Below, in pieces: positions 2 through 28,805 of a DNA stretch of 64,000 nt (positions within the stretch are counted from its first letter, which is position 1; every line of letters starts with the position of its first letter). A program made the position numbers and the translations under genes. The DNA is from Shewanella psychropiezotolerans. Its GTDB lineage: Bacteria > Pseudomonadota > Gammaproteobacteria > Enterobacterales > Shewanellaceae. The notes under the pieces are model-generated. The model ran no database searches, had not been told where the DNA came from, and saw nothing but the letters and a program-made list of their open reading frames with translations. The stretch covers positions 434,001 to 498,000 of the forward strand of contig NZ_CP041614.1 in assembly GCF_007197555.1 (NCBI RefSeq), read 5' to 3'.

Positions 2-94
2 GAGGGGATGACTACTATCGAAGAGGTAGCCAAGCTAGTCGAAGATGTGACCGAGTCTCAAATTCCATTGTCGGTAGATATGGTTAATCAATAG
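2..94 (+). CDS. mshE: MshE, C-terminal end (partial)
   Basis: Only the last 30 codons are in the window, in frame from base 2 to a TAG at 92-94. The peptide contains the run GMTTIEEVAKLVEDV, the usual C-terminal end of GspE/PilB-type secretion ATPases (a G-[IM]-TT-[IL]-EEV motif). Its position directly upstream of the MshG membrane platform gene fits MshE, the assembly ATPase of the MSHA pilus. Family identity rests on this short tail and on gene order. Confidence 0.8.
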   Translation, partial: EGMTTIEEVAKLVEDVTESQIPLSVDMVNQ

Positions 95-265
95 TGTAAG
101 AAATGACCTGAATAATCATGATGGCAAATATTAGTGGCAGTCTTATCCGTAGTGTAAGAAATGACTTGAATAATCATGATGGCAAATATTAGTGGCAGTC
201 TTATCCGTAGTGTAAGAAATGACTTGAATAATGATGGTGGCAATTAATTAATGGCAGTCTATAAA
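92..265. repeat. 58-bp tandem repeat at the mshE-mshG junction
   Basis: Three consecutive units start at 92, 150 and 208, a period of exactly 58 bp. Each begins with TAGTGTAAGAAATGAC; the first TAG is the real mshE stop. Units 1 and 2 differ by about one base. Unit 3 diverges at its end, where it becomes the real start of mshG: the GTGGCAGTCT of units 1 and 2 corresponds to ATGGCAGTCT of the mshG start codon. The repeat therefore copies the mshE stop / mshG start junction. Confidence 0.9.
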
Positions 266-1471
266 TACCGAGGGCGTGACGCCCAGGGACAACAAGTTAC
301 AGGAGTGGTTGATGCCACCTCTGAGAGTGCTGCTGCAGATCAGCTAATGTCTCGCTCGGTTATTCCATTAGAGCTCACTGAGACTAAGGAGAAGCAAGAC
401 TTCTCTCTGACGGAACTGTTTAAAGCTAAGGTGAGTCTCTCCGAGCTACAGATTTTTAGCAGACAGATGTATTCTTTAACCCGTTCCGGCATTCCTATTT
501 TGCGCGCCATCGCTGGCCTGTCAGAAACGACCCATTCTCAACGTATGCGTGATGCCCTCGATGATATTTCTGAGCAGTTAACTGCCGGGCGGCCCTTGTC
601 ATCGGCAATGAATCATCATCAGGATGTGTTCGATGCGCTGTTTGTCTCCATGGTTCATGTAGGGGAGAACACAGGTAAACTCGAAGATGCTTTTATGCAG
701 TTAGCGGGTTATATCGAACGTGAGCAGGAGACCCGGCGCCGGATTAAGGCCGCGATGCGTTATCCAATATTTGTCTTGATTGCCATCACCATAGCTATGG
801 TGATCTTGAACATCATGGTGATCCCCAAATTTGCCGATATGTTTTCTCGTTTCGGTGCAGAGTTACCTTGGGCAACTAAGCTATTAATCGGTACATCTAG
901 CCTATTTGTAAACTATTGGCCGGCCATGCTGGTTGGTGCCATAGGGGCATTTATCGGTATTCGCTACTGGCACAATTCTGAGAAAGGTGAGAAACAATGG
1001 GATAGGTGGAAGCTACATATTCCCGCCGTAGGTAGCATTATTGAGCGTTCTACCTTATCCCGGTATTGTCGTAGTTTTTCCATGATGCTCAGTGCCGGAG
1101 TCCCCATGACGCAGGCGTTAAGCCTGGTTGCCGATGCCGTAGATAACGCCTACATGCACGATCGAATTGTTGCCATGCGCCGGGGCATAGAATCCGGTGA
1201 TTCTATGCTACGGGTATCGAATCATAGCGAATTGTTTACTCCTCTTGTGCTACAGATGGTTGCAGTCGGCGAAGAAACAGGTCAGATAGATCAGTTGCTT
1301 AACGACGCCGCAGACTTTTATGAGGGTGAAGTGGATTACGACCTTAAAAATCTCACCGCTAAACTTGAACCTATCTTAATTGGCTTCGTCGCGGGCATCG
1401 TATTGATATTGGCACTAGGTATATATCTTCCCATGTGGGATATGCTCAATGTGGTCAAAGGTGGAAGGTAA
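251..1471 (+). CDS. mshG: MSHA biogenesis inner-membrane platform protein MshG
   Basis: The 406-residue product is a GspF/PilC-type polytopic inner-membrane protein on which the MSHA pilus is assembled, coupled to the MshE ATPase. It has two homologous cytoplasmic helical T2SSF domains (about 65-190 and 270-395). The paired signatures VGENTGKLEDAF (about 137) and VGEETGQID mark the same point in each repeat. Membrane segments lie near 171-192, 215-237 and 372-397. The length is normal for the family. The ATG at 251 sits in the last unit of a 58-bp tandem repeat and has no strong ribosome-binding site; the N-terminus MAVYKYRGRD matches the usual start of the family. The 3' end is echoed four times downstream. 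Confidence 0.95.
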   Translation: MAVYKYRGRDAQGQQVTGVVDATSESAAADQLMSRSVIPLELTETKEKQDFSLTELFKAKVSLSELQIFSRQMYSLTRSGIPILRAIAGLSETTHSQRMRDALDDISEQLTAGRPLSSAMNHHQDVFDALFVSMVHVGENTGKLEDAFMQLAGYIEREQETRRRIKAAMRYPIFVLIAITIAMVILNIMVIPKFADMFSRFGAELPWATKLLIGTSSLFVNYWPAMLVGAIGAFIGIRYWHNSEKGEKQWDRWKLHIPAVGSIIERSTLSRYCRSFSMMLSAGVPMTQALSLVADAVDNAYMHDRIVAMRRGIESGDSMLRVSNHSELFTPLVLQMVAVGEETGQIDQLLNDAADFYEGEVDYDLKNLTAKLEPILIGFVAGIVLILALGIYLPMWDMLNVVKGGR

Positions 1472-1484
1472 ACTTTGGGCTAGC

Positions 1485-1780
1485 AGGTATATATCTAACC
1501 ATATGGTGGGATATGGTCAACGTGGTCAAAGGCGGAAGGTAACTTCTGTTGCTAGTTTAAACCGGTATATACCTAGCTTTTTATGATGGGACATGCTCAG
1601 TGTGGTCAAAGGTGGAGGGTAACTTCTGTTGCTAGTTTAAAGCAGGTATATATCTAGCCATATGGTGGAATATGCTCAGTGTGGTCAAAGGTGGAAGGTA
1701 GATTTTGTTGCCAGTTTAAAGCAGGTATTTACCTAGCTCTTTGGCGGGTTATGTTCAACGTGGTAAAAGGCGGGAAGTAG
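1485..1780 (+). repeat. four decayed copies of the mshG 3' end
   Basis: The last ~65 bp of mshG (from AGGTATATATC at 1417, encoding the C-terminal GIYLPMWDMLNVVKGGR) recurs at about 1485, 1563, 1644 and 1723, with spacings of 68, 78, 81 and 79 bp. Each copy keeps GTGGTCAAAGG or a close variant followed by GGAAGGTA or a variant, and most are joined by CTTCTGTTGCTAGTTTAAA-like linkers. The copies fill nearly the whole 350-bp gap between mshG and mshF. They are not in one open frame and look non-coding. Confidence 0.92.
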
Positions 1781-1821
1781 ATGAAATTAGATAATTGTCT
1801 GGATAAGGCAGGAAAAACCTA

Positions 1822-2340
1822 ATGCTAAGCCAGCAGAAAGCCGATGGAGAGTTATTGGAACTATATGGCAAGATGATAGCAATTGTCTTGTTGCTCGCCT
1901 TACTAGGCGTATTAGGTTTTAGGTATTTTGGTTCGGTGAATAATATAGCTGCTCAGGGCTTGCGGATCGATCATACTCGTTTTTTAAATGTGTTGGGTAT
2001 GATCAAGGCACAATGGTTAGCTCAAGGTCGACCCAAAGAGATGAGGCTGGATTGGGATACTGGTAGCGTAATAAGCGTTAATAATCAGGTGACTGAATTG
2101 GAAGAGATGAATCTTGTTAAAATGAGCTCAGGAGGCTGGCCATTACCTAATAAGTTGGATTCTGCAGGTTGTGAACAACTTTGGTATCGCTTACTAGGTT
2201 TGGATACCGCGTCACAACAAGTTGTATCTTCGCTTAGTCAGGGGGGAGATGTTTGTAGCTACGTTGCTAACAACTTGGATCGTCTTGGTTATCAGCTGAC
2301 AACCGGGCGCGTAATTTTTTTGACGAATGACAAAGAATAG
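1822..2340 (+). CDS. mshF: MSHA biogenesis protein MshF
   Basis: The 172-residue protein has a short cytoplasmic N-terminus, one membrane segment near residues 18-35 and a soluble, probably periplasmic, remainder. This fits MshF, a minor membrane component encoded between mshG and mshB in MSHA operons. It shows no type III signal-peptide motif, so it is not processed as a pilin. AGGAAAAAC lies just before the ATG at 1822. Its role is poorly defined in the family; the name rests mainly on position, size and topology. Confidence 0.8.
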   Translation: MLSQQKADGELLELYGKMIAIVLLLALLGVLGFRYFGSVNNIAAQGLRIDHTRFLNVLGMIKAQWLAQGRPKEMRLDWDTGSVISVNNQVTELEEMNLVKMSSGGWPLPNKLDSAGCEQLWYRLLGLDTASQQVVSSLSQGGDVCSYVANNLDRLGYQLTTGRVIFLTNDKE

Positions 2341-2482
2341 AGAAAATAGAGTCGTTTCATAGGTTTCTAAAATTCACCGAACTGTTAGAATTGTAAAATA
2401 TGCTATGGGGGCTTATATGGATAAGCAGGTCAGTTATCAAATGAGAATTCAAATGAAAGAGCAATGTAATAAAGGGCTAACT

Positions 2483-3094
2483 ATGACTAACTCTCGAAGC
2501 CGTCAGCAAGGTTTCTCTTTAATAGAGCTTGTGATTGTAATAGTGATCCTCGGTTTGCTCGCCGCAACCGCTATCCCACGTTTTCTCAATGTCACTGATG
2601 ACGCTGAAGATGCCAGTTTAGATGGTGTTGCTGGTGGTCTTGCTACCGCTGTCGGTTTTGTGCGTGCGCAGTGGGAAGTCGATGGTCGTAATAACAATAC
2701 GGTGATCTTAGATGGCACGAGTGTGTCTCTTGATACACGTTTTGGTTTCCCTACAGGAACTGGTGCCAATGGCACAGACGTAACGGCTATGAATGATAAT
2801 CGTTGTCAGCAAGTGTTTAACAGCATTCTTCAGAGTGCACCGCGAAATGTACAATACACAGATGATGCCCGTAATCAGCGTTACACAGTACGCTTCTTAG
2901 ACGGAGTCGGTGGAAATGCAATAGATCTTAATGGTGATACTGTAAATAGTATCGATTTATGTGTTTATCATCAGGTCGCTTCTTTAGCGTTAGATCAATC
3001 AACTGGGGTTGCAACACCCACTCCCGATTTGAATGTGGGTAAAGGGATCACCTATAACCCAGGTACGGGCACGGTAGTTAGTTTTACTAACTAA
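2483..3094 (+). CDS. mshB: MSHA minor pilin MshB
   Basis: This is a type IV pilin-like protein with leader MTNSRSRQQG followed by FSLIELVIVIVILG, giving prepilin peptidase cleavage between G10 and F11, Glu at +5 and a long hydrophobic helix. The frame is open upstream to 2405 with several in-frame ATGs, but those starts would give leaders of 32 or more residues. I chose 2483 because it yields a normal short leader and AAAGGG lies just upstream. The mature protein has two cysteines, one near the C-terminal third (a CQQVF segment and an LCVYH segment). It precedes the mshA genes, the usual mshB position. Confidence 0.88.
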   Translation: MTNSRSRQQGFSLIELVIVIVILGLLAATAIPRFLNVTDDAEDASLDGVAGGLATAVGFVRAQWEVDGRNNNTVILDGTSVSLDTRFGFPTGTGANGTDVTAMNDNRCQQVFNSILQSAPRNVQYTDDARNQRYTVRFLDGVGGNAIDLNGDTVNSIDLCVYHQVASLALDQSTGVATPTPDLNVGKGITYNPGTGTVVSFTN

Positions 3095-3192
3095 AATTAG
3101 TATGTAGCTCTTGATGGCTAAAGAGCTAATTTAAGAATTAATGTTCGCTGCTGAAAGTGGCGATTAAAAGAGTAGGAAAAGGTAGTAGATAG

Positions 3193-3738
3193 ATGAAAAA
3201 ACAAAATGGTTTTACGCTAATCGAATTAGTGGTCGTTATTATCATCTTAGGTATTCTTGCTGTAACAGCTGCACCTAAGTTTATTAACTTACAAGGTGAT
3301 GCACGTGAATCTTCACTACAAGGTATGAAGGGAGCCATTCAGGGGGCAAACAGTTTAGTTTTTTCTAAAGCTGCTATTTCTGGTGGTGAGAAGAGAGCTA
3401 AGGCATATTGGACTGGTGATGCTACGGATTCAGCAGATGAAAAGGGAGGAGTTGATATCGGTACAGGTACCAAGGCAAAAACTAACTTTGGTTATCTGCA
3501 AGGCTTACAAGCGGAACTTGAAAATGCAATAGATGTAGATTTTAACATCGGGACTTCTGCAACGGATCCTACAATTGCGACAGATAATAATGCTGATTGG
3601 ATTATTTTTGTTGATTCAGGCGTTGCAACTATTTGGCAGACAGGGGCTCCAGCGACCTGTAGATTCAACTATACAGAGTCTACAGCTGAAGGGGCTATTC
3701 CTCAATTCTCAGCTATGCCAGAAGCTTCAAGCTGTTAA
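3193..3738 (+). CDS. mshA: MSHA major pilin MshA, copy 1
   Basis: The 181-residue prepilin has leader MKKQNG, mature N-terminus [16 protein letters not shown] and Glu at +5. The conserved MshA segment [22 protein letters not shown] follows, ending with a two-cysteine C-terminal disulfide region (TCRFNYTES ... SSC). The gene is the first of three tandem mshA copies; their first ~50 codons are nearly identical while the surface-exposed C-terminal halves differ strongly. AGGAAAAGG lies upstream of the ATG. In MSHA systems MshA polymerises into the fibre used for surface attachment. Which copy is the main subunit here cannot be told from sequence alone. Confidence 0.93.
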
Positions 3739-3774
3739 TGTATTTTACTTATTATAAGCTAAGTGGATGATCGA

Positions 3775-4299
3775 ATGAAAAGACAAAATGGTTTTACTCT
3801 TATAGAGCTAGTCGTAGTTATTATTATCTTGGGGATCCTTGCCGTTACGGCTGCACCTAAGTTTATAAACCTTCAAAGCGATGCACGTAAGTCTACGCTA
3901 GATGGGATGAAGGGGGCTCTCCAAGGAGCTAATTCTCTTATTTTTTCAAAAGCAGCTATATCAGCTGAAGAGAAAAAAGGTTCAGCAGATGCTTCAACAA
4001 CAGGCTCGGTTGATATTGGAACGGGAACTCCTGCTGCAACAAACTATGGTTACTTACAATCAACAGCTACTCAATTAACAAATGCTATGGATCTGAGTAT
4101 CAGTAACGATGAAGATGATACTGTTGATTGGTATATTGCTGAAGGTGATGATGGCGCGAAATCTGCGCAACTTTATCAAGCTGGTTCTGCTCGTTTTGGT
4201 AACACAACAACGACGACTAATAGATGTTATGTGACTTATACACCAACAACATCAACTACAGCTGCTCCTACCTATGTAGTGACAGATGATGATTGTTAA
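3775..4299 (+). CDS. mshA: MSHA major pilin MshA, copy 2
   Basis: This is a second intact MshA-type prepilin, 174 residues from the ATG at 3775 (leader MKRQNG, then [14 protein letters not shown]). The frame opens at 3763 (MDDR...), but 3775 gives the same six-residue leader as copy 1. The first ~50 residues match copy 1 almost exactly; after the SKAAIS segment the sequence diverges and is rich in Thr, Ser and Asp, ending in a disulfide-type C-terminus (RCYVTYTP ... DDDC). It starts 36 bp after copy 1 and is followed by a strong hairpin terminator, so copies 1 and 2 probably share a transcript. Confidence 0.92.
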   Translation: MKRQNGFTLIELVVVIIILGILAVTAAPKFINLQSDARKSTLDGMKGALQGANSLIFSKAAISAEEKKGSADASTTGSVDIGTGTPAATNYGYLQSTATQLTNAMDLSISNDEDDTVDWYIAEGDDGAKSAQLYQAGSARFGNTTTTTNRCYVTYTPTTSTTAAPTYVVTDDDC

Positions 4300-4316
4300 A
4301 TAGAATGTATAATCTT

Positions 4317-4343
4317 AAAGGCCTGCTAAGCAGGCCTTTTTTG
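4317..4343 (+). terminator. rho-independent terminator after mshA copy 2
   Basis: GGCCTGC-TAA-GCAGGCC forms a 7-bp GC-rich stem with a tight loop, followed by TTTTTT. It lies 18 bp after the mshA copy 2 stop and separates copies 1-2 from copy 3. Confidence 0.85.
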
Positions 4344-4527
4344 TGCCTATTGGTTTTGGCTGAATAACCTTAATCTGCTTAGCTTTTCTCTCCGCCTGAT
4401 AACCCTCTAATTTACTTCCAATAACTATCCATATCGTTTCAATGTGTTGCTTTATTGTTAACGATGGTATTATTTGACTAGAATTAATAGATATTGCATG
4501 GATGCGTAGACTAGAGGAATATGCGGT

Positions 4528-5048
4528 ATGAATAAGATTAAGCAGCAAGGTTTTACCTTAATTGAATTGGTAGTGGTGATCATTATCTTAGGTATTTTAG
4601 CGGTTACGGCAGCTCCTAAGTTTATTAATCTTCAGTCTGATGCCAGAGAATCGACCCTTAGCGGTATGCAGGCTGCACTCCAAGGAGCGAACTCCCTCGT
4701 TTTCTCGAAAGCTGCAATTGCGGGGGTTGAAACAGAAAATAATCAAGATGTTGAGCTTGCAACTGGCGTGACGATAGAGCTTGATTATGGCTATATCAAA
4801 AGCTTTGGTGCTGAGGTTACTACGATTTTGAACCTTGAAATAGCATTGGATATGCAATTTGAAGAGATAACTGCTGCCGGTACAGCAGCTACAGAAGACT
4901 GGGGGTTCGTTCAACTGGGTCTACCATTACGTTCGTACCTAAAGGCAAAACCCCAAATGGTGACTGCCGTTTAGACTATACAGAAGCATCAGAAACTAAT
5001 GATGTGATTACTTTACCTACTTATAATCTTGTTGGTACTGATTGTTAG
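4528..5048 (+). pseudogene. mshA: MSHA major pilin MshA, copy 3, frameshifted
   Basis: It starts like copies 1 and 2 (leader MNKIKQQG, then [18 protein letters not shown]) with an upstream GAGGAA. The open frame ends early at 4974 with an atypical tail. Near 4907-4912 the coding potential jumps by one base; in the other frame the protein continues TGSTITFVPKGKTPNGDC, then RLDYTEAS, and ends GTDC at the TAG at 5046-5048. That is a normal MshA C-terminus with two cysteines. Restoring one T (GTTTCA instead of GTTCA) would reconnect the frames as DWGFVSTGST. This is either a real one-base deletion or a sequence error. Confidence 0.88.
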
Positions 5049-5085
5049 ACGATAACCTTAACAATAGATTTAGTGCATAAAATTG

Positions 5086-5116
5086 AACCTCTGGCTAAAA
5101 CTGGAGGTTTTCTTGT
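5086..5116 (+). terminator. hairpin after mshA copy 3
   Basis: AACCTC (5086-5091) pairs with GAGGTT (5104-5109) across a 12-nt loop and is followed by TTCTTGTTT. It is a modest intrinsic terminator between the pilin genes and mshC. Confidence 0.6.
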
Positions 5117-5259
5117 TTATAGCTTCCAAAATAAACACTCTTTAGCAAAACACCAATTTTTAAGTCGATAGATATTATATACATATAAAATATCACAGTT
5201 TTTTGTCATACTTAGCGGTAAGTGTTTTGTGGTACCCAATTCAAACTTTCGGTATAAAG

Positions 5260-5715
5260 ATGAGAAAAAATGCGGGCTTTACTCTAGTAGAGCTAGTCAC
5301 CACTATCATGCTCATTGCCATTCTCTCTGTGGTGGTCTTGCCACGTCTAATGACTAGCTCTAGTTACAGTGCCTTTACCCTGCGTGACGAGTTTATCAGT
5401 GAGTTACGCAAAGCTCAGCTGTTGGCGATGAATAATCAAGACCGCTGTTATCGAGTCGATGTCGATGCCGACGGTTATCAGTTGCGCCGTTTTGATAATA
5501 ATACCTGTACCGGAACCAGCCGCACGGAAGCTAAACAAGCATTTTCGGGAGGTGCTAGCTTGATGCGCGCCTCAGATGACAATAACACCTTCAATGTTAG
5601 CTTTAATATCTCTGGCATCTCTAATATGGGGTGTAGTGGCACATGTATCAATGTTATTGCCGACGAGACCTTGACCATCAATATCGAGAGTCAGGGGTAT
5701 ATTCATGGGCGTTAA
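5260..5715 (+). CDS. mshC: MSHA minor pilin MshC
   Basis: The 151-residue minor prepilin has leader MRKNAG, then FTLVELVTTIMLIAIL with Glu at +5. The frame is open from 5203, but that start would put 25 residues before the cleavage site, so 5260 is preferred. The soluble part has a D-ryD-like pilin segment (RCYRVDVDADGYQLRRF) and a CSGTC pair near the C-terminus, a plausible disulfide. The position between mshA and mshD is the standard one for MshC. The mshD start lies 11 nt inside its 3' end. Confidence 0.88.
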   Translation: MRKNAGFTLVELVTTIMLIAILSVVVLPRLMTSSSYSAFTLRDEFISELRKAQLLAMNNQDRCYRVDVDADGYQLRRFDNNTCTGTSRTEAKQAFSGGASLMRASDDNNTFNVSFNISGISNMGCSGTCINVIADETLTINIESQGYIHGR

Positions 5716-6283
5716 CTCTTTTATGAAATTATCAAAACTTTCAGCACCATCTTATAAGTCTAAAGGGTTTACTTTAATCGAGCTGGTTGTTGGCATTGTA
5801 GTATTGAGCATCGCCTTAGTCTTGCTAACCAGTATGTTATTCCCTCAAGCCGATCGTGCTGCAGAGACCTTGCACAGGGTGCGCTCCGCCGAGCTGGCTC
5901 ACTCTATTCTTAATGAGATTTGGAGCAAACGTTATGATCAAAACACCAATGCCAATGGCGGCGTACCCGCTTGTGGTGCGGCTGTAAGGCCTGTGCTAGG
6001 TTTACCCGCAGGGCTTGCGTGCACGCTTGCTGCCAATTTGGGGCCTGATCCCGGAGAGAACCGAAACAACTTTAATGATGTTGACGATTATCATGGCTTA
6101 ACCCAAGCGAGTTTAATGCTTAACTCGGTTAATACCTATGGCAGTGAATATCCTAATTATCAGCTTAACGTAACAGTTGCTTATCCTAATGCTTCCGATA
6201 TGGATACCAAGATAATCACCATAGCCGTGACTACGCCGAATAATGAGGTGATAATTTACAATGCGGTTCGGAGTAATTACTGA
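5705..6283 (+). CDS. mshD: MSHA minor pilin MshD
   Basis: The 192-residue protein has a longer leader ending SYKSKG before [20 protein letters not shown], a normal type III signal with Glu at +5. The ATG at 5705 has AGGGG at good distance and overlaps mshC by 11 nt. A second ATG at 5723 would shorten the leader to 15 residues but lacks a clear ribosome-binding site. It overlaps mshO by one base. MshD is one of the minor pilins expected to prime or cap the fibre, by analogy with type II secretion pseudopilins. Confidence 0.88.
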   Translation: MGVNSFMKLSKLSAPSYKSKGFTLIELVVGIVVLSIALVLLTSMLFPQADRAAETLHRVRSAELAHSILNEIWSKRYDQNTNANGGVPACGAAVRPVLGLPAGLACTLAANLGPDPGENRNNFNDVDDYHGLTQASLMLNSVNTYGSEYPNYQLNVTVAYPNASDMDTKIITIAVTTPNNEVIIYNAVRSNY

Positions 6284-7582: not shown

Positions 7583-10500
7583 TACAATTAAGCATCCATT
7601 TGCAGTCGTGTTACTGTTTATTTTTTCAGGAGCAATTGCCACTGCTGAAGCCACTGACTGGAGTCTGACTTTTATTGAAGGTGCCAACTCTTTCGATAGG
7701 GATGGGGAGATCAAGTTTGAAAATTCTGCGAGGCTTAATAATGCGCCACAAAATGGCCAACTCCCAGCGCCTAAAGTTGATGACAGTGGTAAGGCTTGTT
7801 ACCCCAATGGCGGTAATGCTAAAAAGTGTAAAAAGTCGAATCAGTTGGCCCAACTTCCAGCAGAAAGAGTGAACTTCTCTCAGTGTAAATCCAATAGTAA
7901 TAACAATATAGGCCCGCCTAGTAATGGCAACCCTACCATCGATGTTCCAGAAGGGGAGTATGGCGATGTAAAGTTGGAAGGCGGCTCTAATAGAACCATA
8001 CGTTTTACTACTGTCGATGGTATATACAAGCTAAAAACATTGCAGGCTAAGAGTGGTCGCCTAGAGTTATCTTCGGGTCAGTATTGGATTGGAAATTTAG
8101 AAATTAATCAAGGTGTTACAATTGTCTTCCCCTCTACAGGTACGGTAAGCTTTTTTATTGATGGGGGCTACGACATAGTAAATGATGACTCCCCTGCAGA
8201 TCCTACTCGTTTTTTAATTTATTCCTATGATGATATCAAACTCATGGGAGGCCTTAACCTTAATGCATACCTTGTAGGTGAGGACGATGTTTTATTGGAG
8301 GGAAGTTCAACGCTTAACGGTGCAGTTACGAGTGAAGAGATTGAATTAAAAGGTGGCGCAGTTATTAATTTTATCAATCGAACTGGTGAAATTAATGTTA
8401 TTCCAGATTGTAATGCAGAGCCTGTATTACCGGTTGTGCCATTGCAATGCCCAGCAGAACAAGCTGGAGTTGCTGGGATAACTTATCGTACTTATGACGC
8501 GACAAACTGGAAGCCTGGGCAATATACCAGTCCGGTCGATCACGATGACTTTAATGACCTTGTTGCTACGGTTAAAACCACGATCAACCAGCTAGGTGAA
8601 TCTATAGAGTCACGAATTGAAGGATATGGTGTCAACATCAGTCCCCATTCTAATCAGGGTGATAACTATGCAGGCATCTTTGAAGGTTACTTAGATGTGC
8701 CTGAAACGGGTAATTATACCTTTGGCATTGATGGTGATGATTCGATAGAGCTCTTGATTGACGATCAAGTTGTGGTCGGGTTTTATGGTCTACATGGCCA
8801 ATGTGGTTGGCCGTGTCGAACCGGAGATATTGCATTAGCTCAGGGAACACATAAAATCGAGATGCGTTTTCATGAAGCTACTGGTGCTGAGGCGTATCAC
8901 CTGTATTGGCAGCCACCTTCGGCATCAAGTCCAGTAAAAGTACCCGAGTCGGCATATCTAACCTGCCCATTTCCTCAATTTGAATTTGGTCGGGTCAGCT
9001 TGGGCAGCGGAAGCGCTGTCATTAATTTTGAAAATAGCTATGCAACAGCACCTGTGGTAATGCTGATGCCTACCATTGATGGAGAAACTCCCACCAACGA
9101 TGGCCCTTCTAGCGTAAGGCTAGTTTCGAGTAGTGCTACTACTGCGAATATCTCTCAAAATGACCCTCCGGGTAACCGAGTATCGGCCGATGATATGCCT
9201 GAGGTGGATTATTTTGTGATGGAGTCTGGTTATCGTTTCTTAGCTCGGGGCAAGGCGCTGCAAGCGGGAAAGATAGAGACGGAAAAGTATCAAGGTAAGC
9301 GACTGCCTTCTTCAGGAAGAGGATATGAAGATGTTAGTTTCTGGCATAAGTTTGGCGCTAAGCCTGCTATGGTCGGACAAACGTTAACACGAGAAAATAA
9401 TCGATTTATTACCACTGTGATAAATAATGTGAGTTCACAAGGTGACGAATTTGATATTGCCATCGAAGCATCAGAGGTGAATGGTTCGATAACTCAAGAT
9501 GAAACCTTAGGTTATGTTGCCGGGTTAGGTTCAGGCTCCTTGCAGGTCAATGGCGAGGTCATCTTGTACGAGTTTGACTATGCACTCAATCACAGTGCGG
9601 GGGGCAGTACTCGCACACTGACGCAGCAATGTGCTTATTCGACGAACTATGAAAATACCTACCCAAGTCAACCTTACCTAATCGCAAATAAGAATTCTCG
9701 TCGTGGAGGCGATGGTGGTTGGATCAGACGCTGCCGCCAGGAAAATTTTGCTAACTCTGTTAGCTTTGTGGTTGATGAAGATCAACTGTTGGATGCAGAG
9801 CGCAATCACCTTGCTGAAGATATTGGTTACTTTGCCTTTGAAGCTGTTGCAGAGCCACCAGCGACAAACCATTACCGTATAGAATTCTCATCTGGCGCAA
9901 TTAGCTGCGCGGCAAAGGATATACTTATTCGTGCTTGTGCTAATACTGATTGTACTGCTGAAACTTCAGTTTTATCCACTGTTGACTTGACCAAAAATGG
10001 TGGCGTCTACAGTACGATTAACTTTACTGGACATACAATACCTCCCACATCGCTCTGGCATACTGACGGTGGAGTTGTAGTCGTAGGTCTTGGTGCTACA
10101 GCTCCGTCCGGTTCTTATCGTTGTTTTATAGATGGCACAGAGGTGTTAGATATTGATCAATGTAAATTAGTTTATGAAGATACTGGTTTTTACTTTGATG
10201 TGCCTAATACTAGCTCTTGCAAAGATACTGCTAGCTTTGAATTGTTTGCAGTGAAAAAGGACTCTCAGACACAAGAATGTGTCCCCCTTTTCAGTAATCA
10301 AACTAAAGCAATAGATTTTAACTTTGAGTACAAAAAACCTAGCTCTGTTAGTAATGAGGCTTCATTGATACTTAGTAGTTTGCATGTGCCAACAGCTATT
10401 GTAAGCATTGATGGTGGTGATACAAAGAGTTTAAATGTGAGCTTTGATACGAATGGTAAAGCCGAGTTAAAGGCAAATTACCCAGAAGCTGGGGTGGTCA

Positions 10501-11990: not shown

Positions 11991-11999
11991 CGTTAGATT

Positions 12000-13314
<1,315 letters not shown>

Positions 13315-13328
13315 TTAGGGTCGAATGA

Positions 13329-14832: not shown

Positions 14833-14834
14833 AA

Positions 14835-15431: not shown

Positions 15432-15436
15432 AGTTA

Positions 15437-15462
15437 TCTAGGCCCTAGAATCTGGAAACTGA
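15437..15462. repeat. partial CTAG-rich element upstream of rng
   Basis: TCTAGGCCCTAGAATCTGG lies in the maf-rng gap. It resembles one arm of the longer CTAG inverted repeats near 33.5, 35.3, 36.4 and 59.5 kb but lacks a full second arm. Confidence 0.5.
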
Positions 15463-15487
15463 AACCCTACTAAAAGTGAGTGTAAAT

Positions 15488-16990
15488 ATGAGTCGCATAG
15501 TCAAAAACAGAGTACAGAGAAAGATTGGTTCTGAACTATTGATCAATGTGACTCCCACGGAAGCCAGAGTCGCCTTGGTTGAACATGGTGTGTTGCAGGA
15601 AGTCCATATAGAGAGGCGGATGAAGCGTGGCCTAGTGGGCAATATTTACAAGGGCAAGGTGAGTCGTGTCTTACCGGGAATGCAGGCGGCATTTGTGGAT
15701 ATCGGCCTGGATAAGGCGGCCTTCTTACATGCCTCTGATATCGTACCCCACACCGAGTGTGTTGCCGATGTAGAGAAGGGTAACTTTGTGGTACGCGATA
15801 TCGCTCAGCTGGTCAGGCAAGGGCAAGATATCATGGTACAAGTGGTGAAAGACCCCTTAGGTACCAAAGGTGCTCGCCTGACTACGGATATTACCTTACC
15901 CTCTCGCTACCTGGTGTTTATGCCTGGGTCGAGTCATATCGGGGTTTCTCAGCGTATCGAGTCTGAAGAGGTTCGTGCTCGTTTGAAAGGCTTAACTCAG
16001 CCTTTCGTCGATGAAGATGGCGGCTTTATCATTCGCACCGCGGCAGAGAGTGCCGGTGAGCAAGAGTTAGTCCAGGATGCCGCATTTCTTCGTCGTGTGT
16101 GGGCGAAAGTCAGTGAACGACGTAAGCGTCCGGGTGTGTCTCTGTTGTATCAAGATCTGGCACTGCCTGTACGCATCGTTCGTGATTTTGTCGGTACCGA
16201 GCTGGATCAGATCCAGGTTGATTCAAGCAAGACCTTCGATGAGCTACAGACATTCACCCAAGAGTTTATGCCTGAGATTGCCGACAAGATTGAGCATTAT
16301 TCAGGCCCTGTACCTATTTTCGATCTCTATGATGTTGAAAACGAAGTGCAGAGAGCATTGGGGAGAAAAGTTGAGTTGAAATCGGGTGGCTACCTGATCA
16401 TAGATCAGACCGAAGCCATGACGACGGTGGATATCAACACAGGTGCTTTCGTCGGCCATCGCAATCTCGAAGATACCATCTTCAATACCAACCTCGAAGC
16501 GACTCAAGCCATTGCACGTCAGTTGAGGCTGCGTAATCTTGGCGGCATCATCATCATAGATTTTATCGACATGTTGGATGCTGAGCATCAAAAACGTGTG
16601 CTTAATAGCCTGGAACTGGCACTATCTCTGGATAGGGTTAAAACTAATATTAGTGGTTTCTCCGGTTTAGGTTTAGTGGAGATGACTCGTAAACGTACTC
16701 GAGAGAGTTTAGAGCATGTTTTATGTGGAGAGTGCCCAGTGTGTCTAGGTACGGGTAGCTTGAAGACGGTTGAGACTGTGTCTTATGAGATCTTCAGAGA
16801 GATCATCAGGCTCAACCGCAGCTATGATGCAGATGAGTTTTTAGTGTACTGCTCGCCTGCGGTTCATGGCAGTTTGACGGGTGAAGAGAGCCATCTAGTC
16901 GCCGAGCTCGGCGTCTATATTGGTAAACAAGTTAAGCTTAAAAATGAGCCCATGTATGCTCAAAATAAGTTCGATGTGGTAATAATGTAG
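15488..16990 (+). CDS. rng: ribonuclease G
   Basis: The protein has an N-terminal S1-type RNA-binding region (GNIYKGKVSRVLPGMQAAFVDIG), the RNase E/G catalytic core with conserved acidic segments (VDINTGAFVG and IIIDFIDM) and the zinc-link CGECPVCLG near residue 405. It lacks the long disordered C-terminal scaffold of RNase E, so it is RNase G (CafA), which matures 16S rRNA 5' ends and decays some mRNAs. The frame opens at a GTG (15476), but the ATG at 15488 is better spaced from AAAGTGAG. It is ~12 residues longer at the N-terminus than the E. coli protein. Its stop overlaps the GTG of yhdP. Confidence 0.94.
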   Translation: MSRIVKNRVQRKIGSELLINVTPTEARVALVEHGVLQEVHIERRMKRGLVGNIYKGKVSRVLPGMQAAFVDIGLDKAAFLHASDIVPHTECVADVEKGNFVVRDIAQLVRQGQDIMVQVVKDPLGTKGARLTTDITLPSRYLVFMPGSSHIGVSQRIESEEVRARLKGLTQPFVDEDGGFIIRTAAESAGEQELVQDAAFLRRVWAKVSERRKRPGVSLLYQDLALPVRIVRDFVGTELDQIQVDSSKTFDELQTFTQEFMPEIADKIEHYSGPVPIFDLYDVENEVQRALGRKVELKSGGYLIIDQTEAMTTVDINTGAFVGHRNLEDTIFNTNLEATQAIARQLRLRNLGGIIIIDFIDMLDAEHQKRVLNSLELALSLDRVKTNISGFSGLGLVEMTRKRTRESLEHVLCGECPVCLGTGSLKTVETVSYEIFREIIRLNRSYDADEFLVYCSPAVHGSLTGEESHLVAELGVYIGKQVKLKNEPMYAQNKFDVVIM

Positions 16991-21943: not shown

Positions 21944-21994
21944 AAAGTTGATGTCAGTGTCTTATAAAAATTATGCACAAAGAGAGAGTAATTA

Positions 21995-23446
21995 ATGCCA
22001 TTTTTAACCCAAGTTGAGCAGAGCCTTTTACAAGATGGACTATCGCTGGATGACCTGCAGGGTTATCTCAAGCTAATCCATCAACATGATGTCGACTTTT
22101 CTGATCTCTATTTTCAGGGCAGCCGTCATGAGTCTTGGGTACTAGAAGATGGCATAGTGAAAGAGGGCAGCTTTCATATCGAGAGAGGTGTGGGTGTTCG
22201 GGCCATCACAGGTGAGAAAACGGGCTTCGCTTATGCCGATGAGATCACTCCTGCTGCATTAACTGCATCGGCCGAGGCGGCTCGCAGTATCGCAGCCCAT
22301 GGCGGCGAGAGCGCTTCGGTACAAGCCTGGAAGCGTAAAGAGATGAAGGCCCTATACCAGAGTGCCGATCCAATCGCGGCGATGGAAGAGGCCAAGAAGA
22401 TCGCGCTGCTTAAGCAGGCCGATGCTTATATTCGTAGTCTAGATAGCCGTATTATTCAGGTGGTCATCAGCCTCTCAGGTGTACACGAAGAGATACTTAT
22501 TGTCGCGAGCGATGGCACCTTGGCGGCAGATATTCGTCCATTGGTTCGCTTTAATTGCAGCGTGATCCTGGAAGAAAATGGCAAACGCGAACGCGGTGCC
22601 AGTGGCGGCGGTGGACGTCACGACTATCAGGTGATGATGGAGACAGATGATGCAGGTCTGCCGGTTTGTTTCGATTTCGCTCGAGAAGCGGTAAGACAAG
22701 CCTCGGTTAATTTGCACGCGGTAGATGCACCAGCCGGCGAAATGCCGGTGATCTTAGGCCCTGGTTGGCCTGGTGTATTACTTCATGAGGCGGTTGGCCA
22801 TGGCTTGGAAGGTGACTTCAACCGTAAGGGCAGCAGTGCATTCAGTGGTAAGGTAGGCCAGCAGGTCGCCTCTAAGCTGGTGACTGTGGTCGATGACGGC
22901 ACCATGGTAAACAGACGCGGCTCTTTGAGTATCGATGATGAAGGTGTGCAGACTCAGAAGACTGTGCTGATCCAAGATGGGATCTTGAAAGGCTATATGC
23001 AGGATAAATTAAATGCGCGCCTTATGGGTGAGCAGTCCACGGGTAATGGGCGTCGTGAATCTTATGCACACTTGCCTATGCCGAGAATGACTAACACTTA
23101 TATGGAAGCTGGCGAGTCGGATCCGGCTGAGATGATCAAGTCAGTTAAGAATGGCATCTATGCGCCTAACTTCGGTGGTGGTCAGGTCGACATTACTTCC
23201 GGTAAGTTTGTGTTCTCGGCTTCAGAAGCCTATTTGATTGAGAATGGTGAAGTGACTCAGGCGATTAAAGGTGCAACCCTTATCGGCAATGGTCCGGAAG
23301 CCATGGGTCAGATCTCTATGGTGGGTAACGATCTGGCATTAGACCAAGGTGTCGGCGTCTGTGGTAAGGATGGTCAGAGCGTTCCAGTCGGTGTTGGCCA
23401 GCCTACACTCAAGATAGATAAATTAACCGTAGGTGGAACGGCGTAA
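21995..23446 (+). CDS. tldD: TldD, metalloprotease subunit
   Basis: The 483-residue protein carries the TldD zinc motif HEAVGH (His264, Glu265, His269) inside [13 protein letters not shown]. TldD pairs with PmbA/TldE, also encoded in this window (32115-33455), to form a protease that trims unfolded or modified peptides such as microcin B17 leader and CcdA. The N-terminal region ([19 protein letters not shown]) and C-terminal beta barrel match the family. It ends a collinear rng-yhdP-nit-tldD run, as in related genomes. Confidence 0.96.
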
Positions 23447-23455
23447 GAAAAAGTT

Positions 23456-23490
23456 AGAAGGAGCTAGGCCGCAGGTTTAGCTCCTTCTAT
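23456..23490 (+). terminator. inverted repeat after tldD
   Basis: AGAAGGAGCTA (23456-23466) pairs perfectly with TAGCTCCTTCT (23478-23488) across an 11-nt loop, 10 bp after the tldD stop. The downstream T-run is weak (ATTCAACTTC), so this is a likely but not classic terminator. Confidence 0.65.
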
Positions 23491-23573
23491 TCAACTTCAA
23501 TGAATGCTAAGATTGACCAAGGAATTAGAGTAAACACTCTAGGTTGTGCACACCAAGGTGCAGAGGAAAGGGG

Positions 23574-24989
23574 ATGAAGTTTTCAAAGTTAGCTCTAGTG
23601 TCGTTTTTGGCATTGGGCTCTTTTACTGCACAGGCATCGAACCTGGGCTTCGAACAAGCCTGGAAGCAGTTGCTAACCGTCAGCGATAAACTACAGGCCA
23701 GCGCACAGGAAGTACGACGTGCAGAGGCCAAGCATGAAGCGGGGAAAGATCTCAACCTTCCCTCAATTAGCCTCAATGGCAGCTACACCAGATTAGAGAA
23801 ACCTATCGAGATGGATCTGAGGGATCTTAACCCTTTGGCATCTATGGATCCCGCTTCGCTTCCTCCTGCACTTGGTGGTGCACTAGCGGCCATTCCAGGC
23901 TCCATGTTTATCACTCCCTTTACCGAGCAAGATATCTTTCGCTCCAGCCTTCAGGCTATGTGGCCCATCTATACTGGTGGCAAGATTACCGCAGCCCAGG
24001 GTATTCATGCGGCTCAAGTGGCTGAGAAAGAGCAGCAGTTTCAACTGACCACACGAGATCTCTTCATTCAACTGGTGGATCGTTATTACGGCGTCGCAGT
24101 GAGCCAAGCCATGGCCCGTACTCGAGGTGAGCTTGTTGTCTCTCTTGAAGAACATTCGGAGCATGCGGTTAAGCTGGAAGAGCAAGGTCAGATAGCGAAA
24201 GTTGAGCGATTAAATGCTCAAGTTGCATTAGAGAATGCCAAGGTCAATTTTGCCAGCGCCAGGCGTCAGGCCGAGATGGCAGAAATAGCCCTGTCGCGCA
24301 TGCTACATGAGCGAGAAGTGAACCCAATCTCTCAGCTATTTATGCTAAATAATGCTCCGTCACTGCCCCGATTAAGTCAGCTAACTCTGGCGCAACATCC
24401 GGCATTGAAACTACTCGAGGCAAAAGAGGCTCAGGCACAGGGTCTGGTGGATGTTGAGAAAGGTCAGTATTTACCGACGGTTTTTCTCTACGGTAACTAC
24501 ACACTATATGAAGATGACAGTTTGTTTTCCAAGATGGAGCCGGACTGGATGTTAGGCGTGGGCGTCAAGATCCCCCTGCTGAGCAGAGATGGACGTAGCG
24601 GCAAAGTCGAGGCGGCTAAGAGTGCGCTGCTGCAGGCGCGTTATACCAAGGCGCAGACTCAGCAAGATCTCAGCTTGTTGCTGGATCAAAGCTATCGTCA
24701 ACTGCTACAGGCTCAAGAAGAGGTAGAGTCTTTAGACTTATCACTGAGCCTGGCAACAGAGAATAAACGTCTACGGGATCTGGCCTTTCGTCAGGGATTA
24801 TCCACTTCCATCGAGAAGGTAGACGCAGAGCTTAAGCTCACAGGTGTTGAGATGCAGCAACTGGCTGCCAAGTACCGTTATGTTCAGGCCTATGCCCGTT
24901 TGATGGCGGTGAGTGGGCAACTGGATGAATTTTTAGGTCGCAGCAGTATTGAGACTAGCGCGATGCAGGAGAGTAAGAATGCAGGCTAA
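23574..24989 (+). CDS. TolC-family outer-membrane efflux protein
   Basis: The 471-residue product has a signal peptide (MKFSKLALVSFLALGSFTAQA) and the repeated alpha-helical hairpin organisation of TolC/OprM outer-membrane channels, with long coiled-coil stretches near 130-230 and 340-440. The ATG at 23574 follows GAGGAAAGGGG and is preferred over the upstream start at 23544. The gene begins a cassette with an HlyD-type adaptor and two ABC-2 permeases; the HlyD start overlaps its 3' end by 11 nt. The substrate is unknown. Confidence 0.9.
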   Translation: MKFSKLALVSFLALGSFTAQASNLGFEQAWKQLLTVSDKLQASAQEVRRAEAKHEAGKDLNLPSISLNGSYTRLEKPIEMDLRDLNPLASMDPASLPPALGGALAAIPGSMFITPFTEQDIFRSSLQAMWPIYTGGKITAAQGIHAAQVAEKEQQFQLTTRDLFIQLVDRYYGVAVSQAMARTRGELVVSLEEHSEHAVKLEEQGQIAKVERLNAQVALENAKVNFASARRQAEMAEIALSRMLHEREVNPISQLFMLNNAPSLPRLSQLTLAQHPALKLLEAKEAQAQGLVDVEKGQYLPTVFLYGNYTLYEDDSLFSKMEPDWMLGVGVKIPLLSRDGRSGKVEAAKSALLQARYTKAQTQQDLSLLLDQSYRQLLQAQEEVESLDLSLSLATENKRLRDLAFRQGLSTSIEKVDAELKLTGVEMQQLAAKYRYVQAYARLMAVSGQLDEFLGRSSIETSAMQESKNAG

Positions 24990-25950
24990 TCGTATAATTG
25001 CAGTTGTGGCCCTGGTGGGCTTAGTGGGGGTATTGGGCTATGGACTTAAACTGGCCTATACCCCGAAAATCCTCTATCTGCAGGGGCAGATAGAGGCGAG
25101 AGAATACAATATCTCCTCAAAGGTTCCCGGGCGTGTCGAGCAGGTACTGGTGAGACGTGGCGACAGTGTAGAGGTCGGCGATCTCTTGTTTGCCATCGAT
25201 AGCCCAGAACTTAATGCCAAGTTGATGCAGGCCGAAGGTGGCAGAGATGCAGCTCAGGCAATGCAGTCAGAAGCCGATAGCGGCGCCCGTAAGCAGCAGG
25301 TGATGGCCTCCCGTGAGCAGTGGCTGAAAGCGAAGGCGGGAGCCACATTAGCCAAGACTACCTACGATCGGGTAGAGAACTTGTTTGTCGAAGGCGTACT
25401 CGCCAGACAGAAACGTGATGAAGCATTTACTCAGTATCAGGCGGCCAAATACACGGAGCAGGCAGCCTTAGCCATGTATCAGATGGCTCAGGAAGGGGCG
25501 AGGGTAGAGACTAAGGCCGCCGCCGCGGGTAATGCTCGTATGGCCGAAGGCGCCGTCCACGAAGTTAATGCTATTTTAGCCGATAGCCAGATGCGCGCAC
25601 CTAAGTCCGGTGAGATAAGCGAAGTGTTACTGCAACCTGGTGAGCTTGCTCCTAGCGGCTTCCCTGTGGTTAGTTTGATAGATATGCAAGACGCCTGGGC
25701 CGTATTTCAAGTCAGAGAAGATCAGCTTAAGCAGTTCTCTAAAGGACAGAAGCTGATGCTAACCCTGCCGGCTCTCGAACGTGAGGTCGAATTTACTGTG
25801 TCTCATATTAGTGTGATGGGTGACTTTGCGACTTGGCGTTCGACTGAGAGTGGCCATGATTTCGACATGCGTACCTTCGAGGTGGAGCTGCGCCCTAATT
25901 CAGACATTAAAGATTTAAGGGTCGGCATGTCAGCGATCTTAACTCGCTAA
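24979..25950 (+). CDS. HlyD-family periplasmic adaptor
   Basis: The 323-residue membrane-fusion protein has an N-terminal membrane anchor (about 5-24), a lipoyl-like half (VPGRVEQVLVRRGDSVEVGDLLFAIDSPEL), a helical hairpin (about 70-180) and the second lipoyl half plus beta-barrel (APKSGEISEVLLQPGELAPSGFPVVSLID). It resembles E. coli YbhG/YhiI. The start at 24979 has AGGAGAG upstream. It should bridge the permeases encoded next to the TolC-type channel before it. Confidence 0.92.
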   Translation: MQANRIIAVVALVGLVGVLGYGLKLAYTPKILYLQGQIEAREYNISSKVPGRVEQVLVRRGDSVEVGDLLFAIDSPELNAKLMQAEGGRDAAQAMQSEADSGARKQQVMASREQWLKAKAGATLAKTTYDRVENLFVEGVLARQKRDEAFTQYQAAKYTEQAALAMYQMAQEGARVETKAAAAGNARMAEGAVHEVNAILADSQMRAPKSGEISEVLLQPGELAPSGFPVVSLIDMQDAWAVFQVREDQLKQFSKGQKLMLTLPALEREVEFTVSHISVMGDFATWRSTESGHDFDMRTFEVELRPNSDIKDLRVGMSAILTR

Positions 25951-25963
25951 ACCTGAGATTATC

Positions 25964-27169
25964 ATGAACAGTTTAGTGGCCCTTATTCGTCGTGAGCTCC
26001 ACGCACTGTGGAACTCGCCATGGCAGCTCGCCCTGGTTAGCTATATTCCCATCTTGAGCATACTCTGTTTATGGTGGCTGTTCAGTGCGGGTTTACCGAG
26101 ACAGTTACCTGTGGCCGTCGTGGATTCGGACCATAGCCAATTGAGCCGTATGCTAACCCGTAAATTACAGGCCAACCCAGTGGTTGCTCCGCAGAATTTT
26201 GTAGACTTAGCCTCGGCGGTAACCGCCATGAAACAGTCCCAAGTATATGGCATCGTGGTGCTTCCCTACGGGTTGCAACGGGATCTTATAACGGGTCATA
26301 GCCCGGTCATAGATGTTCGCTATAACAGTCAGTTCTTGCTGGTGGGTAAACTCTTATCCAGCCAGATTCAACTCACATTAGGCTCGGGACTTCTCGAGGT
26401 CGCAGGAGTGAAACAGCTGCTTCAAGGCGTGCCTAAGTCTCAGGTAGCCTCGCATTTGAGCCCGGTGACCAGCCAGACCACGGCACTGTTTAATCGCAAT
26501 AATAACTATGTGAGCTTCCTGGTGCCACCTGTGCTAGTTGCCCTTTGGCAATTACTGGCCATGCTAATCTTCTCTAATAGCTTAAGCCGGGAGTTAACCC
26601 CAGAAGGGTGCTTCGCTGCAGATAGCGGTATCTGGCCTAGGATTTGGGCCAAGATTGCCGTGTTTACTCCGATTTTACTCATGCATGGTGGCTTCATTCT
26701 GGCCCTGCTATATCAGTATTTAGCCCTGCCTGTAGCGGGTAGCTTAGCCCTATTAGTCTTGGCGCAACTGGCGATGTTATTGGCGGTCTGGCTGCTGGTA
26801 TTGCTGGTCTTTTTCATCATGCGAGACAGTGCCCGCATGGTGAGTTTCGGTACCGCATTATTCGCGCCAGCATTTGCGTTTATGGGGATCACGTTTCCGG
26901 TCCATGAGATGCCTATACTCGCCCAGTGGTGGCGTTTAATTATGCCGTCCAGTCACTATGTGGACTCACATGTCAGCATCGTCAGTTATGGAGTGGGTTG
27001 GGAGACCATAGCTATACAGCTTACTAGCTATTGGGGCTTCCTCTGCATCATACCAGTACTTTTTTTGCTATCACGCCGCATTGAAAAGGCCTCGAAGTCC
27101 GAGCCCAGTCAGCAGATGATAGACCCGGATCTGGCGTCTAAAAGACAGGGGCGGATCTGTGATGAGTAA
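25964..27169 (+). CDS. ABC-2 type transporter permease 1
   Basis: The 401-residue permease has one N-terminal membrane segment (about 20-40), a large periplasmic loop and five membrane segments in the C-terminal half (about 185-375), the layout of YbhS/YhhJ-type ABC-2 exporters. It contains the conserved AFMGITFPVHEMP segment before the last membrane pair. It follows the HlyD gene by 13 bp and overlaps the second permease. No ABC ATPase gene lies in this cassette. Confidence 0.9.
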   Translation: MNSLVALIRRELHALWNSPWQLALVSYIPILSILCLWWLFSAGLPRQLPVAVVDSDHSQLSRMLTRKLQANPVVAPQNFVDLASAVTAMKQSQVYGIVVLPYGLQRDLITGHSPVIDVRYNSQFLLVGKLLSSQIQLTLGSGLLEVAGVKQLLQGVPKSQVASHLSPVTSQTTALFNRNNNYVSFLVPPVLVALWQLLAMLIFSNSLSRELTPEGCFAADSGIWPRIWAKIAVFTPILLMHGGFILALLYQYLALPVAGSLALLVLAQLAMLLAVWLLVLLVFFIMRDSARMVSFGTALFAPAFAFMGITFPVHEMPILAQWWRLIMPSSHYVDSHVSIVSYGVGWETIAIQLTSYWGFLCIIPVLFLLSRRIEKASKSEPSQQMIDPDLASKRQGRICDE

Positions 27170-28325
27170 TAAGATGATGAGTTTTTGGCAACTAGTATCA
27201 GCCGAGCTAAAGGCAATAGTGGCAGATAAGGCCATCGCAGTGACCCTATTTGGTGGTGTGCTGTTTTATTCTGTTTTATACCCCTTACCTTATCTTCATC
27301 AGGTACCGACTGAACAACAGCTGGTTGTGGTTGATCTGGATCGCTCTTCATTGAGCCGCCGTCTGATCCGTCATGCGGATGCCAGTGCGAAAGTCAGTGT
27401 CATCGGCCAGGTGACCAGTATCAGTCAAGCTCAGAGCTGGATAGAATCCGGCCGCGCTCATGGCCTGCTGGTCATTCCCGAAGGCTTCAGGCGAGATCTG
27501 TTATTGGGCAAGGGGGTAACCTTAAGCTATGGCGGTGATGCTAGCTACTTCCTTATCTATTCCGCGGTTGCTGAGGGCCTAGTTACGGCTGGCATGGATG
27601 CGGGTAAACAAGTACAACTGCTCGGCATGCTGGCTAAAGGTGAGGCGCCTAAACAAGCGAATTTAAGCCTAAACTCGGTGAAGATCAACAGTGTGCCTGC
27701 GTTTAACCCTAGCCTGGGATACACTCCCTATGTGGTGCCTGGACTCTTCTTGTTGATCTTGCATCAGACTTTACTGATAGGAACCGGGATCTTAGGTGCC
27801 GGCCAATGGCGGAGAAAGGGTTATTGGCGAGATGTTTCACCTCTGCAACTCGTCTGTGGTCGCATCTCGGCATTCATGTTGATTTACCTATTTTTCAGCA
27901 GCTTTTATGTCGGTTTCTGTTTTTACTGGTATCAGGTCAGCGTGCAGGCAAGCCTTAGTCTGGTGGCCCTGTGGATGTTACCCTTTTTATTGGCAACCAG
28001 CGCTGCCGGTATTGCCTTGAGTAGCTTGTTTGTCCGCCGGGACCTACCGACTCAAGTCTTGTTGTTAGTCTCTATGCCCATCATGTTCGTCTCCGGCTTT
28101 GTCTGGCCATTGGCGCTTATCCCAGAGCCTCTGATTTGGCTGTCTCAGGTGATCCCTGCCGTCCCCGCTATCATGGGGATGTTAGAGCTTAATCAGATGG
28201 GGGCGTCTTGGTCCAGTGTCATGCCTAAATGGCTGCAGTTATGGGGCTTGTTCGCTGTATTTTTTGTGCTGGCTCTGTATGGCGTCACGCGAAGACTCAA
28301 ATCGGCAGTTGATGAGACGAGTTAG
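27162..28325 (+). CDS. ABC-2 type transporter permease 2
   Basis: A second, homologous ABC-2 permease (387 residues), with an N-terminal membrane segment, a periplasmic domain and five C-terminal membrane segments including MFVSGFVWPLALIPEP. GTG at 27159 and ATG at 27162 are both possible; the ATG is chosen, with GGGGCGG just upstream, and overlaps permease 1 by 8 nt. Two unequal permeases probably form a heterodimer, as in YbhR/YbhS. The last ~140 bp of the gene are repeated twice downstream. Confidence 0.9.
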   Translation: MSNKMMSFWQLVSAELKAIVADKAIAVTLFGGVLFYSVLYPLPYLHQVPTEQQLVVVDLDRSSLSRRLIRHADASAKVSVIGQVTSISQAQSWIESGRAHGLLVIPEGFRRDLLLGKGVTLSYGGDASYFLIYSAVAEGLVTAGMDAGKQVQLLGMLAKGEAPKQANLSLNSVKINSVPAFNPSLGYTPYVVPGLFLLILHQTLLIGTGILGAGQWRRKGYWRDVSPLQLVCGRISAFMLIYLFFSSFYVGFCFYWYQVSVQASLSLVALWMLPFLLATSAAGIALSSLFVRRDLPTQVLLLVSMPIMFVSGFVWPLALIPEPLIWLSQVIPAVPAIMGMLELNQMGASWSSVMPKWLQLWGLFAVFFVLALYGVTRRLKSAVDETS

Positions 28326-28328
28326 TTC

Positions 28329-28612
28329 TTAATCAGATGGTCGATGCCTCAGGTCCAGTGTCATGCCTAAATGGCTGCAGTTATGGGGCTTGTTCGCTGT
28401 GTTTTTTGTGCTGGCTCTGTATGGCGTCACGCGAAGACTCAAATCGGCAGTTGATGAGACGAGTTAGTTCTTAATCAGATGGTCGATGCCTACAGGTCCA
28501 GTGTTATGCCGAAATGGCTGCAGTTATGGGGCTTGTTCGCTGTGTTCTTTATGCTGGCTTGGTATGCGTCATGCGAAGGCTAGAATCAGTAGGTAATGAG
28601 ACTAGCTGGTTT
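28329..28612 (+). repeat. two tandem copies of the 3' end of permease 2
   Basis: A unit beginning TTAATCAGATGG occurs in the gene at 28189 and again at 28329 and 28471, periods of 140 and 142 bp. The first extra copy is nearly identical to the gene end, including the stop and GAGTTAGTTC; the second has several substitutions and small deletions and fades out near 28612. The copies are non-coding in practice: the gene has already stopped at 28325. Confidence 0.95.
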
Positions 28613-28774: not shown

Positions 28775-28805
28775 GTATCAAATTCTCTCTCATGAGAAAA
28801 TATGT

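Follow-up and report, generated by a model that had tools for sequence, protein, structure and literature searches.

Bacterial minisatellites, or variable-number tandem repeat (VNTR) loci, known from multilocus VNTR analysis (MLVA), consist of head-to-tail units, from tens to a few hundred base pairs long, that lie between genes or, in frame, within them, and that vary in copy number from strain to strain. A closer parallel to the arrays described here comes from the archaeal Borg elements, whose tandem repeats can start within gene ends and turn over fast, with units in open reading frames (ORFs) all divisible by three, against 14-38% of intergenic units (PMC9879509, in the parts of that source drawn on here). 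Also pertinent is concerted evolution in prokaryotes, in which copies within the same genome are more alike than orthologues, as excerpts of PMC6053082 set out. The subject of this analysis is three arrays in a window of 64,000 bp, meaning the whole stretch of DNA analysed, bases 434001-498000 of the one-contig, 6.45-Mb genome of Shewanella psychropiezotolerans (working label G000), where the DNA next to a gene repeats that gene's own end, which we call an echo. Judged by the MshG protein across the 80 loci compared, the closest relative of this Shewanella is S. benthica, with identities of 99% to DSM 8812 and 96% to KT99, and of 96% to isolate DT_112. Our verdict is VNTR-type tandem duplication, unusually frequent, with possible rewriting of gene ends, and we think it likely that these echoes are ordinary local tandem duplications that turned into small variable-number arrays whose placement is set by geometry and purifying selection.

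The arrays are real, as the initial annotation had it: they are the three strongest of the four that Tandem Repeats Finder reports in the window at a score of at least 50, and they are present, at other copy numbers, in the separate records of relatives. The first (92-260, forward strand as are all features given here; 58 bp x 2.9, match 94%, score 294) has a unit whose first base is that of the mshE stop codon (92-94), with the last copy reaching about 10 bp inside mshG, whose ATG is at 251, which makes the array a duplication of the whole junction with little coding sequence in the unit. The second lies beyond mshG itself, an ORF at 251-1471 (stop codon 1469-1471) for a membrane protein of the T2SSF family (PF00482, E=3.1e-62), which is called mshG after the initial annotation and the usual order of the operon. 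Here the program reports 1482-1770 (79 bp x 3.6, match 80%, score 357), the DNA at 1472-1782 consists of degenerate copies of the final 55-65 bp or so of the gene, and extension moves the start of the array to 1417, within mshG, so that the full array at 1417-1782, with a period of about 79 bp, holds the gene's own end and about four degenerate downstream copies. We considered whether the first of these copies might be a translated alternative MshG C-terminus and rejected the idea: a GIYL..WWDM..NVVKGG-like peptide can be read by eye, but it is not in frame with mshG, and a further copy carries a frameshift. The third and strongest array (28210-28578, 142 bp x 2.6, match 95%, score 668) starts in the end of the coding sequence of an ABC-2 type permease (27159-28325; PF12698, E=4.4e-53), where one copy of the unit resides at 28210-28325, and continues as two extra copies at about 28329-28470 and 28471-28611, which over 105 bp are 99% and 83% identical to the gene end; the second has, by eye, one base fewer than the gene and looks non-coding. 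Past this array, at about 28738-28775, an imperfect terminator-type hairpin, AAAGCCCAT ... ATGGGCTTTT, can be seen by eye, on which a terminator scan of 28000-28850 was silent, reporting no terminator.

Each of the three units is specific to its locus, with no match anywhere else in a genome-wide search at E<=0.001. This bears directly on a possible origin of the units as mobile or dispersed repeats, of the REP, ERIC or MITE kind, that inserted beside gene ends. They are indeed short, intergenic and repeated, but none has a second site in the genome, and for mshG and the permease the unit matches the adjoining gene; with no copies at unrelated loci we rejected a dispersed REP or MITE element, and consider such an origin extremely improbable.

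Copy number differs among relatives, a comparison that the initial annotation had suggested, and it does so independently at each locus, from one or two to about seven copies across close relatives, the strains compared being different species or near-species. For example, copies of the permease end within 700 bp downstream number 2 in G000, 3 in DSM 8812, 2 in the related genome G073, 4 in a further relative, G123, 1 in DT_112 and 0 in KT99, which by eye keeps only a 13-bp scrap, and no permease echo could be found by eye in the six next relatives. The mshE-mshG array was found in KT99 and G073, as two degenerate copies (by eye) in DT_112, and not at all in DSM 8812. In KT99 (locus L005, about 9836-9870), as read from the sequence, mshE has lost its stop codon, and its frame runs on to a TGA in the first array unit, so that the array would supply the stop of mshE. 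In G073 the mshG array has 5.4 copies of 79 bp, and in G123 it has 7.2 copies of 80 bp; the G073 units (L259) are 96% identical, the gene's own last 55 bp or so included, and form the most homogeneous mshG array among those compared. It had also been proposed that the copies nearest the permease are the freshest, and this holds in G000 (99%, then 83%) and in G073 (100%, then 92%) but fails in DSM 8812 (86, 89 and 90% in order) and in G123 (69, 87, 86 and 77%), so that it is no rule. Assemblers are known to go wrong at tandem repeats, and an assembly artefact had been a worry from the start. Yet KT99, DSM 8812, G073, G123, S. hanedai and others have arrays that are similar but differ in sequence, and the presence of arrays in separate genome records means that they are not the artefact of one assembly; in addition, permease copies differ from their own gene end by 0 to 31%. 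We regard an artefact as very remote indeed. In being head-to-tail arrays of units of at least 10 bp whose copy number differs among related strains, the arrays of the window thus resemble VNTRs.

Why should copies of gene ends accumulate, and not copies of gene middles? The duplication of a segment would create one new junction and would leave both outer junctions unchanged, and a gene would be damaged only if both breakpoints fell within it and the length were not divisible by three. Wherever the duplicated block held a gene's start or stop codon, one copy of that gene would stay intact. Duplications that hold a start or stop codon, or that lie between genes, would then be nearly harmless and would persist, those inside genes would persist only in frame, and later copies would be gained or lost by slippage or unequal recombination; geometry and purifying selection would between them put echoes at gene edges and not in the middles. 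We examined the placement of all arrays with a period of at least 25 bp in six samples (n=75), with gene calls, here and in the echo counts below, that come from an uncurated, home-made coding model, and with random gene-sparing placement of the same periods as the expectation. Thirteen of the 75 arrays lie wholly inside genes, and every one of the 13 has a period divisible by three, as do only 18 of the remaining 62; a frame filter is thus evident, in agreement with the earlier suggestion that selection lets arrays grow only where no frame is upset, and the VNTR likeness extends to both this restriction and the lack of dispersed units. One array in G000 (L127, 10569-11136) holds 14.6 in-frame copies of a 39-bp unit within a single gene. 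Among the 62 non-internal arrays, 43 lie wholly between genes and 19 touch a gene edge, against about 24 expected (p=0.19; all p values in this text are uncorrected), two of the arrays counted as edge being doubtful (L194 1-1048, at a stretch end, and L192, in a huge repeat gene). Within the power of the six samples there is, then, no clear excess at edges over random gene-sparing placement, an edge-seeking process is not needed to explain the arrays, and the proposal that some process targets start or stop junctions is not borne out, this being the outcome that the initial annotation had itself named as a refutation.

How common are such echoes? We scored the last and first 60 bp of called genes of at least 180 bp against their own adjoining intergenic DNA in evenly spaced 20-kb stretches, with the same intergenic regions set against other genes' ends (five rounds), and with gene middles, as controls. 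In 864 kb of G000 an echo is found at 14/477 3' edges and 5/500 5' edges, or 19/977 in all, about 2%, which upholds the suspicion of a recurring duplication process; neither the mismatched gene ends, in five rounds, nor the gene middles gave a single match. Two of the 14 3' echoes are those of the window, at mshG and the permease, for which chance is excluded by the absence of any hit from mismatched ends in the five rounds, and the mshE-mshG array falls below detection (score 18) because it holds too little coding sequence for a 60-bp test. Outside the window G000 has 17 echoes in 800 kb, and simple scaling would extrapolate to about 140 in the whole genome. An earlier and stricter version of the test (genes of at least 400 bp, 700 bp left free at stretch ends), run on 464 kb of G000 before the filters were loosened and stretches added, found 2/201 at 3' edges and 2/202 at 5' edges, with scores of 32 to 40.

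Elsewhere, echoes were seen at 3' and 5' edges respectively in 1/205 and 1/209 cases in G073, 5/218 and 0/223 in G123, 1/193 and 0/203 in G125, and 1/228 and 0/232 in G046, while 20 other Shewanella genomes, at 20 kb each, gave 0/222 and 0/236 (0/458). Mismatched gene-end pairs matched in none of the samples of this main test, and gene middles matched in none of G000, G073, G123 and the 20-genome mix, with 1/193 in G125 and 1/228 and 1/232 in G046, in repeat-rich genes. Taken together, G000, G073 and G123 have 26/1832 against 2/1314 in the others (p=7e-5), G073 by itself being low, and echoes are unusually frequent in the S. benthica/violacea group. A test on the 80 loci gave 5/86 3' and 1/88 5' edges for 10 loci of the clade, and 0/560 and 2/547 for the remaining 70; its three 5' matches may be adjoining pilin paralogues, presuming the usual operon order, and in its control three mismatched pairs matched, perhaps from the loci being orthologous. 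Coding density is 0.73-0.74 in the three samples of the benthica/violacea group and 0.81-0.83 in the other three, in keeping with gene-sparing duplication that enlarges intergenic DNA, a comparison that does not tell cause from effect.

The mshG echo has a history of its own. It is present in 11/16 members of one supported clade and in 0/59 rows outside it (one carrier, L083, being counted only by a relaxed rule), and on a tree that omits 12 of the 80 loci (L067-L073 and L078-L082, of which L079, with a score of 33, is just below the threshold) it requires at least five gains or losses, three of them forced by well-supported branches. The motif TGGTGGGA occurs downstream of mshG in 11/11 carriers and 0/64 non-carriers, and in 0/75 mshG gene ends, and for this reason we favour a single old origin of the echo, with later losses. 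Beside an eroded echo, L083 and L262 carry a run of TTAAAGG heptamers in place of the usual last mshG codons.

Such persistence, together with a motif foreign to the gene, raises the idea of a regulatory function for the echoes, as DNA or RNA that tunes the downstream gene (spacers, RNA processing elements or translation-coupling elements, for example). The position of the mshG echo, between two genes on the same strand, is compatible with this: the next gene, an ORF at 1822-2340 without a Pfam match that is presumably mshF from its place in the operon, starts 350 bp from mshG, a distance due to the echo array. When seven stretches were folded and compared with shuffled sequence, one unit folded unusually well (z=-3.8), but the other six were unremarkable (z 0.04 to 1.5), and RNA structure as the function was set aside. 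The echo is, moreover, missing from five members of the clade, close relatives differ several-fold in copy number as described above, and the ten other echo-bearing genes examined in G000 have no function in common: nine have Pfam families, all of different kinds, among them PAPS reductase, PhoU, an NAD/FAD/2Fe-2S oxidoreductase, glutathione synthetase and a urea transporter, and one has none. A regulatory role therefore strikes us as improbable, and neutral persistence is the best-supported account; neutrality, like a replication or recombination mechanism, is something we infer.

Several observations do count against ordinary duplication with gene sparing as the whole explanation. The mshG echo, with its non-gene motif and its persistence in one clade, could mean function. 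In the echo test 3' edges are favoured (22/1543 against 6/1603 at 5' edges, p=0.002), a bias that geometry alone does not predict. Edge arrays in G000 by itself are somewhat above expectation (13/26 against 8.8, p=0.10), and 10/23 (p=0.38) without the three of the window, a figure for which the hits were dropped but not all of the window's edges. Nor does total array density explain the echoes of the clade: it is 36 per Mb in G000, 27.5 in G123 and 20 in G073, and G046, outside the clade, reaches 30. Finally, a perfect two-copy array of a 32-bp unit in G125 (L165, 15066-15129) shares no extra base at its junction, which, as a single case, disfavours classic slippage at short repeats. The same locus has, at 16338-16471, a perfect two-copy 67-bp duplication followed by more copies of its last 16 bp or so, so that one repeat is nested at the end of another.

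The 3' bias and the edge arrays of G000 are also what would speak for a dedicated or sequence-directed duplication at stop (and start) junctions, tied for example to the end of transcription, to translation termination or to conflict between replication and transcription. Set against them are the six-sample count, which does not exceed random placement at edges, the preponderance of wholly intergenic arrays, and an array-based edge count in G000 that is less skewed (8 three-prime, 6 five-prime). The bias could equally follow from selection for promoters and ribosome sites, that is, against disturbed start regions, to which we attribute it, and imprecise start calls could add to it. We judge a directed process to be unlikely, and continue to prefer undirected local duplication filtered by selection.

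If echoes arise by such undirected duplication, they may still have consequences for the genes beside them. Since the array counts the gene's own end among its units, exchanges can homogenise that end with its echoes, and in two strains, G000 and G073, the permease end is indeed identical or nearly so to its first echo. Counted in 105-bp blocks from start to end, the permeases of G000 and DSM 8812 differ by 4, 4, 3, 7, 0, 8, 6, 4, 5, 4 and 19 mismatches: the last 105 bp are 18% different and the remainder 4% (19 against a mean of 4.5, p=1e-6, for one of 15 strain pairs). The same step in the last block appears for G000 against KT99 (p=8e-5) and DT_112 (p=7e-5), more weakly for DT_112 against DSM 8812 (p=0.005) and KT99 (p=0.004), and not for DSM 8812 against KT99 (2 mismatches); between G073 and G123 the last block differs less than the others do (8 mismatches, mean elsewhere 15.8, p=0.04). 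The G000 end matches its own first echo at 99% identity and the gene ends of relatives at only 81-84%, for which the simplest reading is that it may have been replaced by an array copy, or duplicated together with one. Among the strains compared for the permease, a terminus nearer to its own echoes than to orthologous termini, with no such step upstream, was seen in G000 and not in DSM 8812, G123 or DT_112, whose ends are no nearer to their own echoes than to those of relatives. In G073 the end equals the first echo, yet against most relatives its last block shows no added divergence, and when mshG ends are compared in 60-bp blocks no clear step appears. We can therefore offer only tentatively, as a rather doubtful extension, the idea that echo arrays might serve as local reservoirs of old and new last codons, from which exchange would periodically rewrite a C-terminus uncoupled from the rest of its gene, in a lineage with unusually high tandem duplication across gene edges.

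Elsewhere in the window, at 33469-33494 and 36427-36471, are two separate short arrays of a 7-bp unit that contains CTAGAA (CCTAGAA and CTAGAAA).

A claim that no named system behaves in this way was right only in part, as minisatellites and VNTRs are a known kind of array. Unlike ordinary VNTRs, some Shewanella arrays have a gene terminus among their units, so that a gene end can join the turnover of the array. For arrays that begin in gene ends and follow the same divisible-by-three rule, the Borg repeats are the closest published description we found, and, in the parts of that source used, these are perfect, A-enriched, pervasive and extrachromosomal, whereas the Shewanella arrays are imperfect and chromosomal (PMC9879509). 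Compared with concerted evolution, as far as the excerpts of PMC6053082 describe it, the unit here is the terminal segment of a gene with its non-coding copies and not a whole paralogous gene, and among the listed papers, screened by title and opening lines of the abstract, none was seen to describe such echo arrays at gene ends in Shewanella. What looks like a habit of copying gene ends can be explained by random tandem duplication together with the sparing of genes whose start or stop is duplicated, and this gene-sparing rule should, in any compact genome, predict the positions of VNTRs. The S. benthica/violacea group would, in addition, be a good system in which to measure how tandem duplication makes intergenic DNA grow and how it edits the ends of genes.

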